Below are positions 14,972 through 60,749 of a stretch of 64,000 nt of DNA, piece after piece. The translations under genes were made by a program, and so were the position numbers. Within the stretch, counting starts at the first letter, position 1, and the number at the start of each line of letters is the position of its first letter. The notes beneath the pieces are model-generated. The model was not told the origin of the DNA, searched no databases, and saw only the letters and a program-made list of their open reading frames with translations. Source of the DNA: Stygiolobus caldivivus (GTDB lineage Archaea > Thermoproteota > Thermoprotei_A > Sulfolobales > Sulfolobaceae); the NCBI RefSeq assembly GCF_019704315.1, contig NZ_AP024597.1:2232001-2296000 (forward strand). Direction: 5' to 3'.

Positions 14972-15689
14972 GTTCATATTGGCTTTTGCAAGGTTTTACG
15001 GTTACGCCCCTTTAACTAGGGGGGCAGTATACGTCTTTTCATACTTGACCGTACCTTTAGCAGAGCTCTTCCTCATTTATATAATTACGAAAGGGGCATT
15101 CGTTAAGTTTGCCATAGCCGGTGGACTAATCACAGTAATAGCTACTAACGGTCTTTCCTTTATAGCAGATTTCGCTTTTCTGAGACTTGAGTTAAAATTA
15201 CAAGACCTACTAGTAGCTACAGAAATATCTGCCGGGGACTATATCCTCGCTTTAACTGTTTCTAACCTCATCTATTCCTCACCGGGGATCATAACTTATC
15301 TTGTACTAGCATTCATATACCACTTGTTGAACATAACTAACTTCGTGCCAGCACTTTTCGTCTTACTGCTATTGCTTCTTAATACCTCAGCCTTGGGCTT
15401 CTTTATAGGTAGTTTAATACCACACGTAAGGTATTCATGGGGGATAGGGTCTATAATGGGGACTTTGCTTACCATTTTACCTCCAGTATTCTACCCCTAC
15501 TATTTACTGCCTAACACGATCTTTGAAACCGTATACCCTCTGCCTACGACTTTAGCCTCCTTGCTTATTCAAAATTTAACCGGTCTGATAAGCACTAAAT
15601 TAGTAGTACAGAGCCTGATCTTGCTAGTTATTGAAACAGCTTTATTCTATTACCTATCAATAAAATTCAGTAGATGGGTTTCCAAATAG
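14961..15689 (+). CDS. ABC-2 type exporter permease
   Basis: This is the membrane subunit for the preceding ATPase. It has six hydrophobic helices in about 242 aa with the ABC-2 pattern, including a conserved late segment ending [17 protein letters not shown]. Start: TTG 14961 has GGTGA exactly 5 nt upstream, the same arrangement as at the pilus ATPase gene, so I prefer it; ATG 14928 would give 11 more residues. The 3' end overlaps the convergent DUF929 gene by 23 bp. The substrate is unknown; control by the divergent winged-helix regulator is likely. Confidence 0.8.
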
Positions 15690-16680
15690 TTACTATGAAA
15701 ATCTGCCTGATCGCTCTACTCTCGGTAGTGGGTAATATGTTATATTCCGACCCGTAGTTAAAAGGGGTATTTTGGAGAACACCTTTAATTTGGGTCGTCA
15801 TTTCACTATTCCCAGTCACTTTACTTATCAGCTGGTGCTCTAACATTTGTATTTCGGTTATCCCACACACGTTATAGGGCTGGTTATTATCGGCTATACA
15901 GAACTCAGCGGTTAAAATGTTTGCCGTTGAATACACTTGTTTAGCTAGGGGTGAAGAAAGGTTTAAGAGCTGGGAAAAAGCATAGCTCCAATTCTTTCCG
16001 CTCAGCAGTGAAGGACTAACTGTAGAACCTACTTGATAATAGAGCCCCGCCACGTATATGAATGGAATTGAACCATGACCTAGTTCCTGCCATAGCTCGT
16101 AAATATTTTGAGGGACGGGCTGTAATGGTTGGTGATCCCTATTTTGATATTCATAAGCTAACAGAGAGAGGTATTTACTACTATAAGACACGTTTACAAG
16201 AGTAAAGGTCGGAGTATTAGGATAAACATCAGTAGAGCTTGATAACATGTACTTTAAGCCAGAGATATTCCCAAACCTATCTAAAGCAATCAGAAAAGCC
16301 CACATCTCGGCGCCACAAAATGGACACCATTCAGCTCCAACAAATATTATTACGGGTTTTCCTCCGTAATCTAAGGATTCAGTGTAGTAAGTAGGATAAA
16401 CTGCCTCAAGGAGAGTTGTGTTAGTAATATTGTACCCCTGTTGGGATAAAGATTTCAACTGAAAATATACAGATGGTGAGACTTTTACTCCGATAATCGA
16501 AGAATCAGATGAAACAGTCTTTGACGTGAAGTAATTAAATGCCACAAAAGAAGAGATTATAATTAGGAAAATAATTAAAAAAATTAAAGCGACTTGCTTA
16601 TGACTTCTCAACCGTATCCACCGTTTATGAGCTTGTGTATGTGTAGTATGCGTCTGGGTATGGGTATACGTTGGGGTCAC
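15667..16680 (-). CDS. DUF929 family protein: membrane-anchored thioredoxin-fold protein with CPFC motif
   Basis: DUF929 proteins are known mainly from Sulfolobales. This 337-aa copy has a His/Thr-rich N-terminus, one hydrophobic anchor (about 31-50), and then an extracytoplasmic domain. [20 protein letters not shown] near 110-129 matches a thioredoxin active site (CPFC), and [14 protein letters not shown] adds two further Cys. A disulfide or thiol redox role outside the cell is inferred from the CxxC and topology. GTG 16680 overlaps the next gene's end by 56 bp; TTG 16611 (removing the TH-rich repeat) is an alternative start. The upstream gene encodes a secreted six-Cys protein, a possible partner. 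Confidence 0.75.
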
Positions 16681-17734
16681 TGAAGTACAATATCATATTT
16701 GAAGGTACTTCAATAGCGTCAACAGCCTTACCGTTCAACAGCGTCTTCCATATTGGGTTATTCTGGTTAGCCATCAAAACAGCACTATCATAAGTACTCA
16801 AAGCCTTCTGCAAATTAGCATAAGAGTTCAAGCACAAGGAAGTATCATTAGTCACATTAGAAGGCACAATCTGCTCACACTGACCCGTCAACGGGTTAGG
16901 GAAAATATTAGGATTAAACACCAGTACTACTACAATATACCATGGTATAGACTGAGTAGTACTAAAAGTCACAATGTGGTCATGAGCAGGAGTAGGCAAA
17001 ACACCCTCAGGAAGACCAAAAACACCATTCTTAATCCCCAAAGACTCCTCAACAGCAGTAAAAGCAGGAGAATATATCAAAGACATGTGGTCGGGACAAG
17101 CAGCAGGAGTATCAGCAGCACCACACTGAGTCAATACAGTATAAGTAGTACCATTATAAGTAAACGTAGGGAAACCCTGAGCATTAGCACCCAACTTCTG
17201 CACACCAAAAATCGACAAACCAGCAAAAGCAGGAACAATCACATAAACCGGAGCAGCATTAGACGGCAAATCAGAAGAAGGCAAACCCTGACCAACCTCA
17301 CACCCATCAGCAACACTCTCCTGCTGAGACTCATTAGCAAAAATCGTAATACCAGACGTATTACAACTAAAGTCCATAGTATAATTAAAAGTTATAACCT
17401 GACCATTAAGAAAAGCAGCAGACAAATTATACATAACAGGAACTCTCTGAGTAACAGTTTGAGTAGCTGTTACTGTAGAAGTTACCGTTTGATTAACTGT
17501 TACTGTAGTAGGCACTGTAGATGTACTTATAACCGTAGTCGAAGAAGTTACCGTAGTAGGCACTGTAGTAGGCACTGTAGATGTTACTGTAGAAGTCACA
17601 CTTGGTTTAGTTGCATATAAGTAAAACCCTATTGCTGCTATTATTAAAAGTATTATTACAGCTGCACCAAATACTATGTTTGAGACTGCTTTTTTCTTCT
17701 TATCTGAACTATGTTTTGTAGATTTTCTCTCCAT
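16625..17734 (-). CDS. Secreted, membrane-anchored protein with Thr/Val/Ser-rich stalk and six cysteines
   Basis: The 369-aa protein has a basic N-terminus ([15 protein letters not shown]), one hydrophobic anchor (about 18-42), then a low-complexity stalk of repeated TVTST/PTTV units (about 46-92). A globular domain of about 275 residues follows, with six Cys (FSC, DGC, TQC, AAC, GQC, LC) and several N-glycosylation sequons. No family was recognised. Codons in the globular part end in T far more often than in neighbouring genes. It is divergent from a membrane polyferredoxin and followed by a DUF929 thioredoxin-like gene; six Cys would suit three disulfides made by such a partner. Function unknown. 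Confidence 0.72.
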
Positions 17735-17864
17735 TTTGCGTCTGATATAAGGACTTTCTAAGCGATTAATAAAAAAGTGTTAAATAAATTTTAACCGTTA
17801 CTGTGGGTTGATATTTAAAGTTTTTAACACACTTTTTTTAAGATTGATATTTAGGGAAGAGCAA

Positions 17865-19223
17865 ATGGCTAATGATACTACTACTCTAATCCTCCTTTTA
17901 AGTAGCGTATTGATCTCAGTAGGTGAAGGAATAACTTACATAAAGAATTATAAAAGACCATCGCTTAGGATAAATTTCTTAAAAATTTTAGTATTATTAA
18001 CAGAAGGGCTAATCATATCTACTATACTATTAGTCTTAACAATCTTATCAAATATTAACATATTGTGGATAATTTCTCTAGATTTTATATATTTGTTTTC
18101 TGTATTCCTTATGTCAAGCAAATTCTCACCTATTAAAGGGGAAGAAAAGAGTATAAACAACATCAAAGTAGCCTTACCCCTCTTATTCTTACCTTTTGCT
18201 ACAGCGTTGTTTTTATCAAGCGATATACTGATCTACACAGACCAGTTCCAACCATCTCTAGGCTTATACGACCCCGTGTGGAATGCAATATCTTATTTTG
18301 TTACAATTACTGGAAGTCAATGGTTGTTAGTTATATTTGGTTCTTTCTTTACACCTCTGGTTGTCCACAAAATCCTATCATCAAGGAGTAGGGGCAATAA
18401 GATAAGGTTGACATTAATGCTTTTAGCTTACTGGATTTACAGCACATATTTACCTAACTTTTCTCCTGTCTCTTCAATTTTCCCCTACATCCCATATTCA
18501 TGGTTTAACGGGTTTGGGACTTTTGGTCCATTAGCTCCGTCCTTACTCATAGGGGCGTTAGGCACTTACGCAGTAACAGCAGTTCTGTCTTTTCTCTTCG
18601 GTTCGAGGCAAATATGTTCAGTGACTTGTACGGCACCTTTCATGCTACAAGGAACTGTTATAGGGGACATGAAGGTCTTTAACAGGACAGCTAAGGTCGG
18701 AAAAAAGATGCTAACTAGTAGGCTCTCTACATGGTATAAGGTAGTTACAGCAGCAGTATGGGTAATGCTTTTAGCCTTTGCCACAGTTTCTTTGTTAGAC
18801 CAGTTAGGCTATACCAACTTTTATATATTGGGTAACGACCCTACAGTACTATACGTGGCGGTTTACTTTAATTTACTATGGTACTTACAATTTCTACTAA
18901 TACCCTTTGTAGGTAATTACAGCTGTGTAAATATGGGTATTTGTACATGGGGGAGCTTCAACCAATTATTCGGGAGGCTTGGGTTTTTCAGGCTAAAGGT
19001 AAGAGATACACAGACTTGCCTTAACTGTAAGACAGTTGATTGTGCTAAAGCGTGTCCGGTAGGGATCACAGATATGAGGGCAGCATTTATTAAAAAAGGT
19101 GAGTTAAGGTCGTTTAAGTGTATAGGTACTGGAGAATGTATTGAATCATGCCCGCATGATAACATATTTATCTATGATTTCAGGAATTGGCTAAAGGAAA
19201 ATTATAAAAAGCAAATGAAATAA
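17865..19223 (+). CDS. Membrane-bound polyferredoxin-like protein (NapH/NosR/CcoG-type architecture)
   Basis: The protein has about ten hydrophobic helices and a C-terminal iron-sulfur domain. Visible Cys sites are ICSVTC in a loop (about residue 247), YSCVNMGICTW (about 350), and a ferredoxin-like tail CLNCKTVDCAKACPVG plus CIGTGECIESCPHD. The first tail motif can ligate a [4Fe-4S] cluster; the second lacks one Cys of CxxCxxCxxxCP (reads Cx5Cx3C), so it may be degenerate or share ligands. I take ATG 17865 (MANDTTT) giving 452 aa; TTG 17808 is possible. By family analogy it would pass electrons between the quinone pool or cytoplasm and an outside acceptor. The divergent neighbour is a secreted six-Cys protein. 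Confidence 0.72.
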   Translation: MANDTTTLILLLSSVLISVGEGITYIKNYKRPSLRINFLKILVLLTEGLIISTILLVLTILSNINILWIISLDFIYLFSVFLMSSKFSPIKGEEKSINNIKVALPLLFLPFATALFLSSDILIYTDQFQPSLGLYDPVWNAISYFVTITGSQWLLVIFGSFFTPLVVHKILSSRSRGNKIRLTLMLLAYWIYSTYLPNFSPVSSIFPYIPYSWFNGFGTFGPLAPSLLIGALGTYAVTAVLSFLFGSRQICSVTCTAPFMLQGTVIGDMKVFNRTAKVGKKMLTSRLSTWYKVVTAAVWVMLLAFATVSLLDQLGYTNFYILGNDPTVLYVAVYFNLLWYLQFLLIPFVGNYSCVNMGICTWGSFNQLFGRLGFFRLKVRDTQTCLNCKTVDCAKACPVGITDMRAAFIKKGELRSFKCIGTGECIESCPHDNIFIYDFRNWLKENYKKQMK

Positions 19224-59855: not shown

Positions 59856-60749
59856 ATGGCTAAAACTAAAAAGACTAAGAAAGAGAGTAAACTGATCTAT
59901 GTCCCATTTATAATATTTATCGCTGTCTTAGCCTTAATATTAGTACTACCTTCTATAAAAAGTCCCTTTGCCCAGCCTTCAAGTTCACTGCCTTTCATGC
60001 ACTTCCAAAAAGTATCTAACCAAGACTACGCTTCATCACCGAACACTGTAGACGTATACTTTATATCTTGGGAAGGGTGCCCCTATGGCGCTACCCAGTC
60101 ATGGCCTCTATACTTGGCCCTGAGCCATTACGGCACTATTAACGCTACACCAACATGGTCTGACCCCGAACCTTTACCTACACCTAGTTCAAACCCACCT
60201 ACCTCGCCTCCCATGCCAGTACCCAGTCTACTATTCAATTCTTTCACCCCTAACGGTAGCGTCCACTTCCACTTCTTCTATATGATCGGTAGGATGTTTA
60301 CTAACAACAACAGTATCAGTTTGCCAAACGGGACTATAATACCGTACTCTGGAAATTCAATAGTGACCCTTGAACAGCAAGAACTCCAGAAAGACGTACC
60401 TAGCTGGGTGTATAACTTGATAGCTAAATACGAGTTAAATACACCGTTCGGGCAATTCCCTAACCTAGCTGATGCTGGGAACCCGCCACATATAGCTACA
60501 GCCTTAATAATAACCGGCCCTAAGGGTACGTGGATGATAATTGGTTACGACCAGTCTGTGGGTTACGCTGCAGCCTATTACCTCGCTACATCTGGCTTCA
60601 CGCCGCAAGAACTTTACTCTAACGTAACCAAAGGGCAGTTACCTAATGTGACTTCAGCGTCTTTTAGCCAAATACAAGCCGTTAGTTATATACAAGACGA
60701 GGAGAATGTTATACTAAATATAATAAACCAAGCGATGGGTACCTCATAA
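59856..60749 (+). CDS. DUF929 family protein with single-Cys CPYG site
   Basis: The 297-aa protein has a Lys-rich cytoplasmic start, one hydrophobic anchor (about 15-36), and an outside thioredoxin-like domain. The active-site region reads FISWEGCPYGATQSWPLYLALSHYG (Cys near 75), corresponding to [20 protein letters not shown] in the paralogue at 15667; the second Cys is Gly, so disulfide exchange by CxxC is not possible. The rest (HFHFFYMIGRMF, NGTIIPYSGNSIVTLEQQEL) differs from the other copy. A TATA-like region precedes the start weakly. The end overlaps the convergent 409-aa gene by 6 bp. Confidence 0.7.
   Translation: MAKTKKTKKESKLIYVPFIIFIAVLALILVLPSIKSPFAQPSSSLPFMHFQKVSNQDYASSPNTVDVYFISWEGCPYGATQSWPLYLALSHYGTINATPTWSDPEPLPTPSSNPPTSPPMPVPSLLFNSFTPNGSVHFHFFYMIGRMFTNNNSISLPNGTIIPYSGNSIVTLEQQELQKDVPSWVYNLIAKYELNTPFGQFPNLADAGNPPHIATALIITGPKGTWMIIGYDQSVGYAAAYYLATSGFTPQELYSNVTKGQLPNVTSASFSQIQAVSYIQDEENVILNIINQAMGTS

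Follow-up and report, generated by a model that had tools for sequence, protein, structure and literature searches.

A linked three-gene set in Sulfolobaceae that joins a stalked six-cysteine surface protein to candidate thiol-disulfide partners

We analyzed a 64,000-nucleotide stretch of the Stygiolobus caldivivus genome (contig NZ_AP024597.1, positions 2,232,001 to 2,296,000; hereafter the window) that carries three neighboring genes. The first codes for a membrane-anchored, stalked protein of 369 residues with a six-cysteine ectodomain, called SIX here (16625..17734, minus strand). The second codes for a DUF929 protein, 337 residues long as called (15667..16680, minus strand), and the third for a polyferredoxin of 471 residues (PFD; 17808..19223, plus strand), a NapH-like membrane protein with a C-terminal 4Fe-4S dicluster-type domain. 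Among Sulfolobaceae the three genes were found together, were absent together and shared their inheritance. The set is probably carried, lost and exchanged as a unit by heat- and acid-loving archaea and dedicated to making or using the disulfides of SIX in hot acid. A preliminary description of the window had treated these genes as one extracytoplasmic redox system; its observation was confirmed, its claim of a single system was supported in Sulfolobaceae, and the electron-transfer function it gave the set is a candidate one.

Searches for the three proteins covered 60 genomes, among them the window genome (G000); 31 of the 60 (G000-G030) made up its own family, Sulfolobaceae. A full or nearly full SIX ectodomain was found in 23 of the 31, a count that takes in three broken SIX genes (split in G015 and G030, and with a stop in the stalk in G023). 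All 23 genomes also carried a matching DUF929 and a PFD of the type that belongs to the set (module type). The three genes lay inside 3,352-6,161 bp in 21 of the 23, an arrangement that is not due to chance. Their relative order and strand differed among the genomes. In G008 and G016 the set was divided into a SIX and DUF929 locus and a SIX and PFD locus, so that each partner still had a SIX adjoining it. We looked in relatives for scattered and unlinked genes, the outcome that would speak against one system, and did not see it within Sulfolobaceae. The calling of open reading frames (ORFs) gave short PFDs in three genomes (G009, G021 and G027).

Absence was shared as well. Among the eight Sulfolobaceae genomes without a full SIX, none had a module PFD except for a 51-residue scrap in G001, one (G022) had an intact module-type DUF929, and one (G014) held a SIX fragment. 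G001, which belongs to the window genome's genus, was syntenic on both sides and showed the PFD scrap beside a DUF929 remnant, with SIX missing. Fisher tests of joint presence with SIX over the 31 genomes, in which kinship was ignored, gave 1e-7 for PFD and 3e-6 for DUF929. In tree-independent pairs on supported branches of a marker tree, PFD followed SIX in 6 of 6 (p 0.031) and DUF929 followed SIX in 5 of 6 (p 0.0625).

The marker was the tree of a longer PFD paralogue (558-656 residues; L121 9143-11044, G000:835163 in the window genome), found in 30 of the 31 Sulfolobaceae genomes. It was missing in G001, which is therefore off the marker tree, and the use of a single gene as marker is a weakness in the argument for transfer. 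The comparison of trees covered 20 of the 23 genomes, with G009, G021 and G023 (partial ORFs) excluded and G015 and G030 included with incomplete SIX. Partial correlations given the marker were 0.74 for SIX and DUF929, 0.56 for SIX and PFD, and 0.81 for DUF929 and PFD, and none of 500 permutations was as high. The three trees matched each other better than they matched the marker (correlations of 0.23-0.44), so the three genes appear to travel together. In each of the three trees the window genome's module clustered, at support 92 to 93, with those of G009, G010, G018, G025 and G027, and in a larger DUF929 tree this group gained G022 (support 98). The window genome's marker gene, in contrast, grouped with that of G011. 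This disagreement between the trees suggests that the cassette was transferred horizontally as a unit.

The new element of the set is SIX, whose ectodomain looks like an unnamed protein family. The window protein has an N-terminal hydrophobic, presumably transmembrane, segment and the Thr/Val-rich stalk that the preliminary description had noted (17444..17734, minus strand; judged by eye). We aligned 46 SIX ectodomains, after dropping the truncated ectodomains of L077 and L102 and a spurious segment of L061; alignments of SIX, DUF929 and PFD homologues were also made from chosen rows (21, 17 and 17, respectively) rather than from every homologue. The six cysteines were invariant in all 46 ectodomains and the cysteine count was even in 45 of the 46, which suggests paired structural cysteines, with three probable disulfides. 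Four polar residues were also conserved: E229 (46/46), H251 (45/46), H253 (40/46) and H216 (38/46). Identity to the window protein was 50-69% across the other Sulfolobaceae genomes aligned. In five thaumarchaeal ectodomains (L067, L068, L070, L076 and L099) the HxH motif is closely followed by an additional pair of neighboring cysteines (CC).

No Pfam family matched the window SIX over its cut-off. Membership in a known Pfam family was rejected, as a scan of all 46 members gave weak matches only, the best at E 0.013 (DUF6814, matched at E up to 1 by 18 of the 46). A PDB search with the SIX profile reached E 1.2 at best. A match of the whole window protein to DotF in a PDB search (E 0.023) was discarded as low-complexity noise, since it spans only the membrane segment and stalk. 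The AlphaFold2 model of SIX had a predicted local distance difference test score (pLDDT) of 87 and a predicted template modeling score of 0.87. With this model Foldseek returned no match at E 0.001 or better in the PDB or among viral models, and in VIA none of 232 aligned chains reached Z 2. SIX is thus predicted with confidence to have a fold that is unmatched in the PDB; the lack of a match is no proof that the fold is new. A viral origin of the gene was also considered and rejected, no relative being found in viral contigs.

We found no sign that SIX is an electron carrier, judging from motifs by eye, cupredoxin match, fold match and cysteine parity. No CxxC or CxxCH (heme) motif was seen by eye, and the cupredoxin test gave a COX2 match at E 0.11 in one of 46 members and no PDB fold match, which is not convincing. 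In Sulfolobaceae, as in those members from Marsarchaeota, Thaumarchaeota and Thermoplasmata that were inspected by eye, the anchor was an N-terminal hydrophobic segment with a stalk. The Micrarchaeum protein L097 showed a signal-like N-terminus with the hydrophobic segment at the C-terminus, and L094 a hydrophobic segment at each end (both by eye). The ectodomain therefore seems to require a tether but not at one given end.

A second SIX gene was found in the window genome (G000:97413-98399; L031 8411-9400), approximately 1 kb from genes for NiFe-hydrogenase-like subunits, named by eye. The two copies differ in membrane segment and stalk and have in common an 821-nt tract, 99.5% identical, which extends from residue 98 as far as the stop codon (16623..17443, minus strand, in the window); the N-terminal region of the gene was not homogenized. 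Ectodomain tracts of SIX paralogues were 99.7% identical in G003, 94.0% in G016 and 97.8% in G008 by BLAST (99.4% in G008 for the ectodomain alone), and one G010 gene (L043 9358-11166) carried two tandem ectodomains with 99.9% identity along 780 nt. The N-terminal regions of the G008 and G016 copies were most like those at the matching position in the other species (90.7% and 94.0%, against 67-70% within a genome), while the ectodomains were most like the other copy in their own genome (99.4% and 93.7% within against 88-90.5% between), a pattern that marks gene conversion. On these comparisons the ectodomains of SIX paralogues show gene conversion, with the qualification that tract ends may merely lie where similarity ends. 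Additional DNA of approximately 0.8-1.2 kb, which may consist of insertion sequences, interrupts the split SIX genes of G030 (L051) and G015 (L052).

The window DUF929 protein matched PF06053 at 123 bits (cut-off 24.6) and showed an N-terminal hydrophobic segment, the CPFC motif at residues 119-122, a second cysteine pair (C261/C272) and weak similarity to CcmG/DsbE around the motif. Invariant columns were read from 17 aligned rows. It is a regular family member by score; however, the module type is set apart by its CPxC and C-x10-C pairs, and none of the 19 other Sulfolobaceae paralogues examined had a CxxC (7 of these being judged over the Pfam-matched stretch). One of these 19 paralogues without a CxxC is encoded in the window itself (59856-60749, plus strand). 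Module DUF929s and 11 relatives from SIX-bearing Marsarchaeota, Thaumarchaeota and Micrarchaeota share the motif CP[YF]C, preceded by a GAE-like stretch. CPxC-type proteins formed one clade of 35 rows in a tree that omits rows under 200 residues (G023, G001 and G007) and the duplicates L059 and L064; 33 rows had C-x10-C and one more had C-x9-C. One row of this clade (L144) came from a genome without a SIX match, and two Thermoplasmata DUF929s with CPYC grouped outside the clade, with a long-branch warning. DUF929 (PF06053) is assigned to the thioredoxin-like clan (PMC3091736). In line with an extracytoplasmic partner, three exported DUF929 proteins were reported from the experimental secretome of Picrophilus (PMC8345856).

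PFD matched PF13237 (Fer4_10) at 34.4 bits (cut-off 25.5) over residues 398-449, and its transmembrane segments were identified by eye. Its best named match was NapH at 39.2 bits against a cut-off of 234, followed by NapH/MauN at 35.3 against 213.05. Like NapH, MauN, NosR and CcoG, it has several transmembrane segments (by eye), conserved cysteine pairs in the membrane part and a C-terminal iron-sulfur (Fe-S) domain. The pairs C270/C274 (CX3C) and C373/C379 (CX5C) were invariant in all 17 aligned rows, which represent 17 of the 23 module PFDs. The membrane part of NapH, MauN, NosR and CcoG carries CX3CP motifs, and no CP directly follows the PFD pairs. PFD differs from these proteins in scoring far below the NapH cut-off, in lacking one cysteine of the second cluster motif (by eye) and in having its own Sulfolobaceae clade, with all module PFDs in one group separate from the paralogue (Shimodaira-Hasegawa-like approximate likelihood ratio test 100). 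No DsbD/CcdA Pfam match was found at E up to 1, and no nap, nos, mau or cco genes were recognized among the scanned neighbors in the window.

Outside the family, a SIX profile scan of one genome per species, which may leave out records near the window genome, returned 44 loci, 42 of them outside Sulfolobaceae. By record title they came from Marsarchaeota, Thaumarchaeota/Nitrososphaerota, Thermoplasmata, Micrarchaeota, Mancarchaeum, other archaea and one metagenome bin titled bacterium, and sample names suggest that many are from acidic sites. DUF929 and PFD-like genes were searched in 19 SIX-bearing genomes (21 of the 42 loci), and DUF929 of any kind was present in 17. Wider counts, which take any DUF929 and do not remove kinship, showed DUF929 in 13 of 13 genomes with SIX matches (one a fragment) against 3 of the remaining 287 (matches over the cut-off) among 300 sampled Thermoproteota, and in 5 of 5 Micrarchaeota-class genomes with SIX against 43 of 142 without (p 0.003). 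SIX was rare in the Thermoplasmata phylum sample (2/194). General co-occurrence of SIX and DUF929 was set aside as proof of partnership outside Sulfolobaceae, where it is weak because DUF929 is common without SIX. DUF929 thus has the wider distribution, and the compact set of three genes is a trait of Sulfolobaceae. Neighbor clusters that recurred within 7 kb of SIX outside Sulfolobaceae, named by a Pfam scan of one member each, included ArsR-like regulators of two kinds (at 7 and at 5 loci) and, in Thaumarchaeota, Rieske ferredoxins (at 6 loci) and FAD oxidoreductases (at 4 loci).

The reading that we favor, and hold tentatively at somewhat less than even confidence, is a horizontally mobile three-gene cassette in which SIX, with its three probable disulfides, travels with its own extracytoplasmic thiol-disulfide partners. 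SIX would be the client, a stalked surface protein. DUF929 would be a membrane-tethered thioredoxin-like protein whose CPxC site forms, isomerizes or reduces the SIX disulfides, perhaps relayed via the second pair C261/C272. PFD would connect the outer face with the cell's electron pool (quinol or ferredoxin) by exchanging electrons, and so hold DUF929 in its working redox state. Either direction, oxidation or reduction, is compatible with the pattern. In this model we infer the physical interaction of the three proteins, the direction of the electrons, the disulfide bonds and the role of the folded SIX. DsbD/CcdA pathways, in which a membrane electron conduit serves an extracytoplasmic CxxC thioredoxin-like protein (TlpA, CcmG or DsbE), are among the known systems closest to the set, and DUF929 is weakly similar to CcmG/DsbE; the conduit here differs in being an Fe-S, NapH-like PFD, and a specific candidate client gene lies alongside.

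The preliminary description suggested that the set could carry electrons outward to an acceptor at the cell surface. In a reading of this kind PFD would pass electrons via DUF929 to a SIX that is itself a carrier or reductase for an external thiol, metal or sulfur compound. The resemblance of PFD to NapH-type membrane electron donors, the conserved polar residues of SIX (E229, H251, H253 and H216) and a few thaumarchaeal loci in which SIX lies near, or points away from, genes for Rieske ferredoxin and FAD oxidoreductase all fit such a chain. Sulfolobus has stalked redox proteins such as sulfocyanin and cytochrome b558/566, with an N-terminal anchor, a Thr-rich stalk and an extracellular domain, and SIX shares this layout. 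However, SIX has no convincing cupredoxin or heme signature and no matching fold, its cysteines come in even numbers as in structural disulfides, and SIX genes outside Sulfolobaceae had no PFD in the fetched DNA, so an outward chain appears unlikely. The same conserved residues (H251xH253, H216 and E229) could instead mark SIX as a metalloprotein with a His/Glu site, PFD reducing the metal ion and DUF929 keeping the ligands reduced or delivering the metal. NapH-type proteins, the best named matches of PFD, are related to CcoG, a proposed reductase of copper. Against this, H253 is replaced in 6 and H216 in 8 of the 46 members, and SIX matched no metal family or fold; we regard metal-center maturation as improbable.

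SIX could also be a surface interaction protein, such as an adhesin, a receptor or an antagonism factor, spread by between-cell selection, with DUF929 and PFD as useful neighbors that fold SIX and other clients. Its patchy presence, transfer as a unit, occurrence across archaeal phyla, swapped anchoring (N-terminal in Sulfolobaceae, C-terminal in L097 and at both ends in L094; by eye) and conversion of the ectodomain (between copies in G000, G003, G008 and G016, and inside the G010 tandem gene) would suit that role. Most surface proteins in an arms race are poorly conserved, unlike SIX at 50-69% identity, and we consider this role rather unlikely. A bolder proposal, which we view as doubtful, makes SIX the founder of a new-fold extracytoplasmic family special to acid life and passed between archaeal phyla including Micrarchaeota, run in Sulfolobaceae by a dedicated transmembrane chain from Fe-S to thioredoxin-like protein that has no described counterpart.

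Several observations weigh against the dedicated cassette that we favor. G022 holds an intact module-type DUF929 without SIX or a module PFD, and SIX is broken in G015, G023 and G030 though DUF929 and PFD persist there (the DUF929 reading frame of G023 is open). G002 and G017, counted among the genomes without the set, are assemblies of 79% and 87% completeness. The DUF929 structure model, built from three sequences, had a pLDDT of 34. At the 42 loci outside Sulfolobaceae a DUF929 gene lay approximately 7 kb away in two and a PFD in none (within the fetched DNA, with many short contigs); PFD-like genes were present in 8 of the 19 SIX-bearing genomes, all outside the module clade, and three SIX-bearing genomes were found without DUF929. 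In the Thermoplasmata order, where 93 of 106 genomes have DUF929, it showed no association with SIX (11 of 12 SIX-bearing genomes against 82 of 94 others, p 1.0). The claim of one system stood strongly within Sulfolobaceae, on linkage, joint absence and agreement of trees, but SIX is usually unlinked from both partners outside the family.

At the window locus, PFD and SIX are divergent, as had been reported, with a spacer at 17735..17807 that is longer if PFD starts at its in-frame ATG at 17865. The reported overlap of SIX and DUF929 (56 nt) exists only with the most upstream GTG start of DUF929. From an in-frame TTG at 16611 the DUF929 N-terminus aligns with its homologues (e.g. MRYKQIIRI...) and 13 nt separate it from the SIX stop. 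This TTG is likely the true start, and the overlap was rejected as a sign of translational coupling because it is probably a start-codon artifact. The SIX gene was a codon outlier, with 62% T and 2% C at fourfold sites against a window mean of 32% T (standard deviation 5.6 points, 49 ORFs). High third-position T was rejected as a trait of the family, since 12 other SIX genes measured 8-45%.

Among the papers listed by literature searches, judged by titles and the opening lines of abstracts, none appeared to describe this three-gene set. At pH 2-3 thiols are protonated and their exchange should be slow, and to our knowledge the formation and control of extracellular disulfides in archaea at such pH and high temperature is an open question. 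The SIX ectodomain, with a confidently predicted and unmatched fold, is shared by unrelated archaea, many probably from acidic sites and including the genome-reduced Micrarchaeota. A conserved candidate client encoded beside what may be its own redox partners would make this question directly testable in genetically tractable Sulfolobales.

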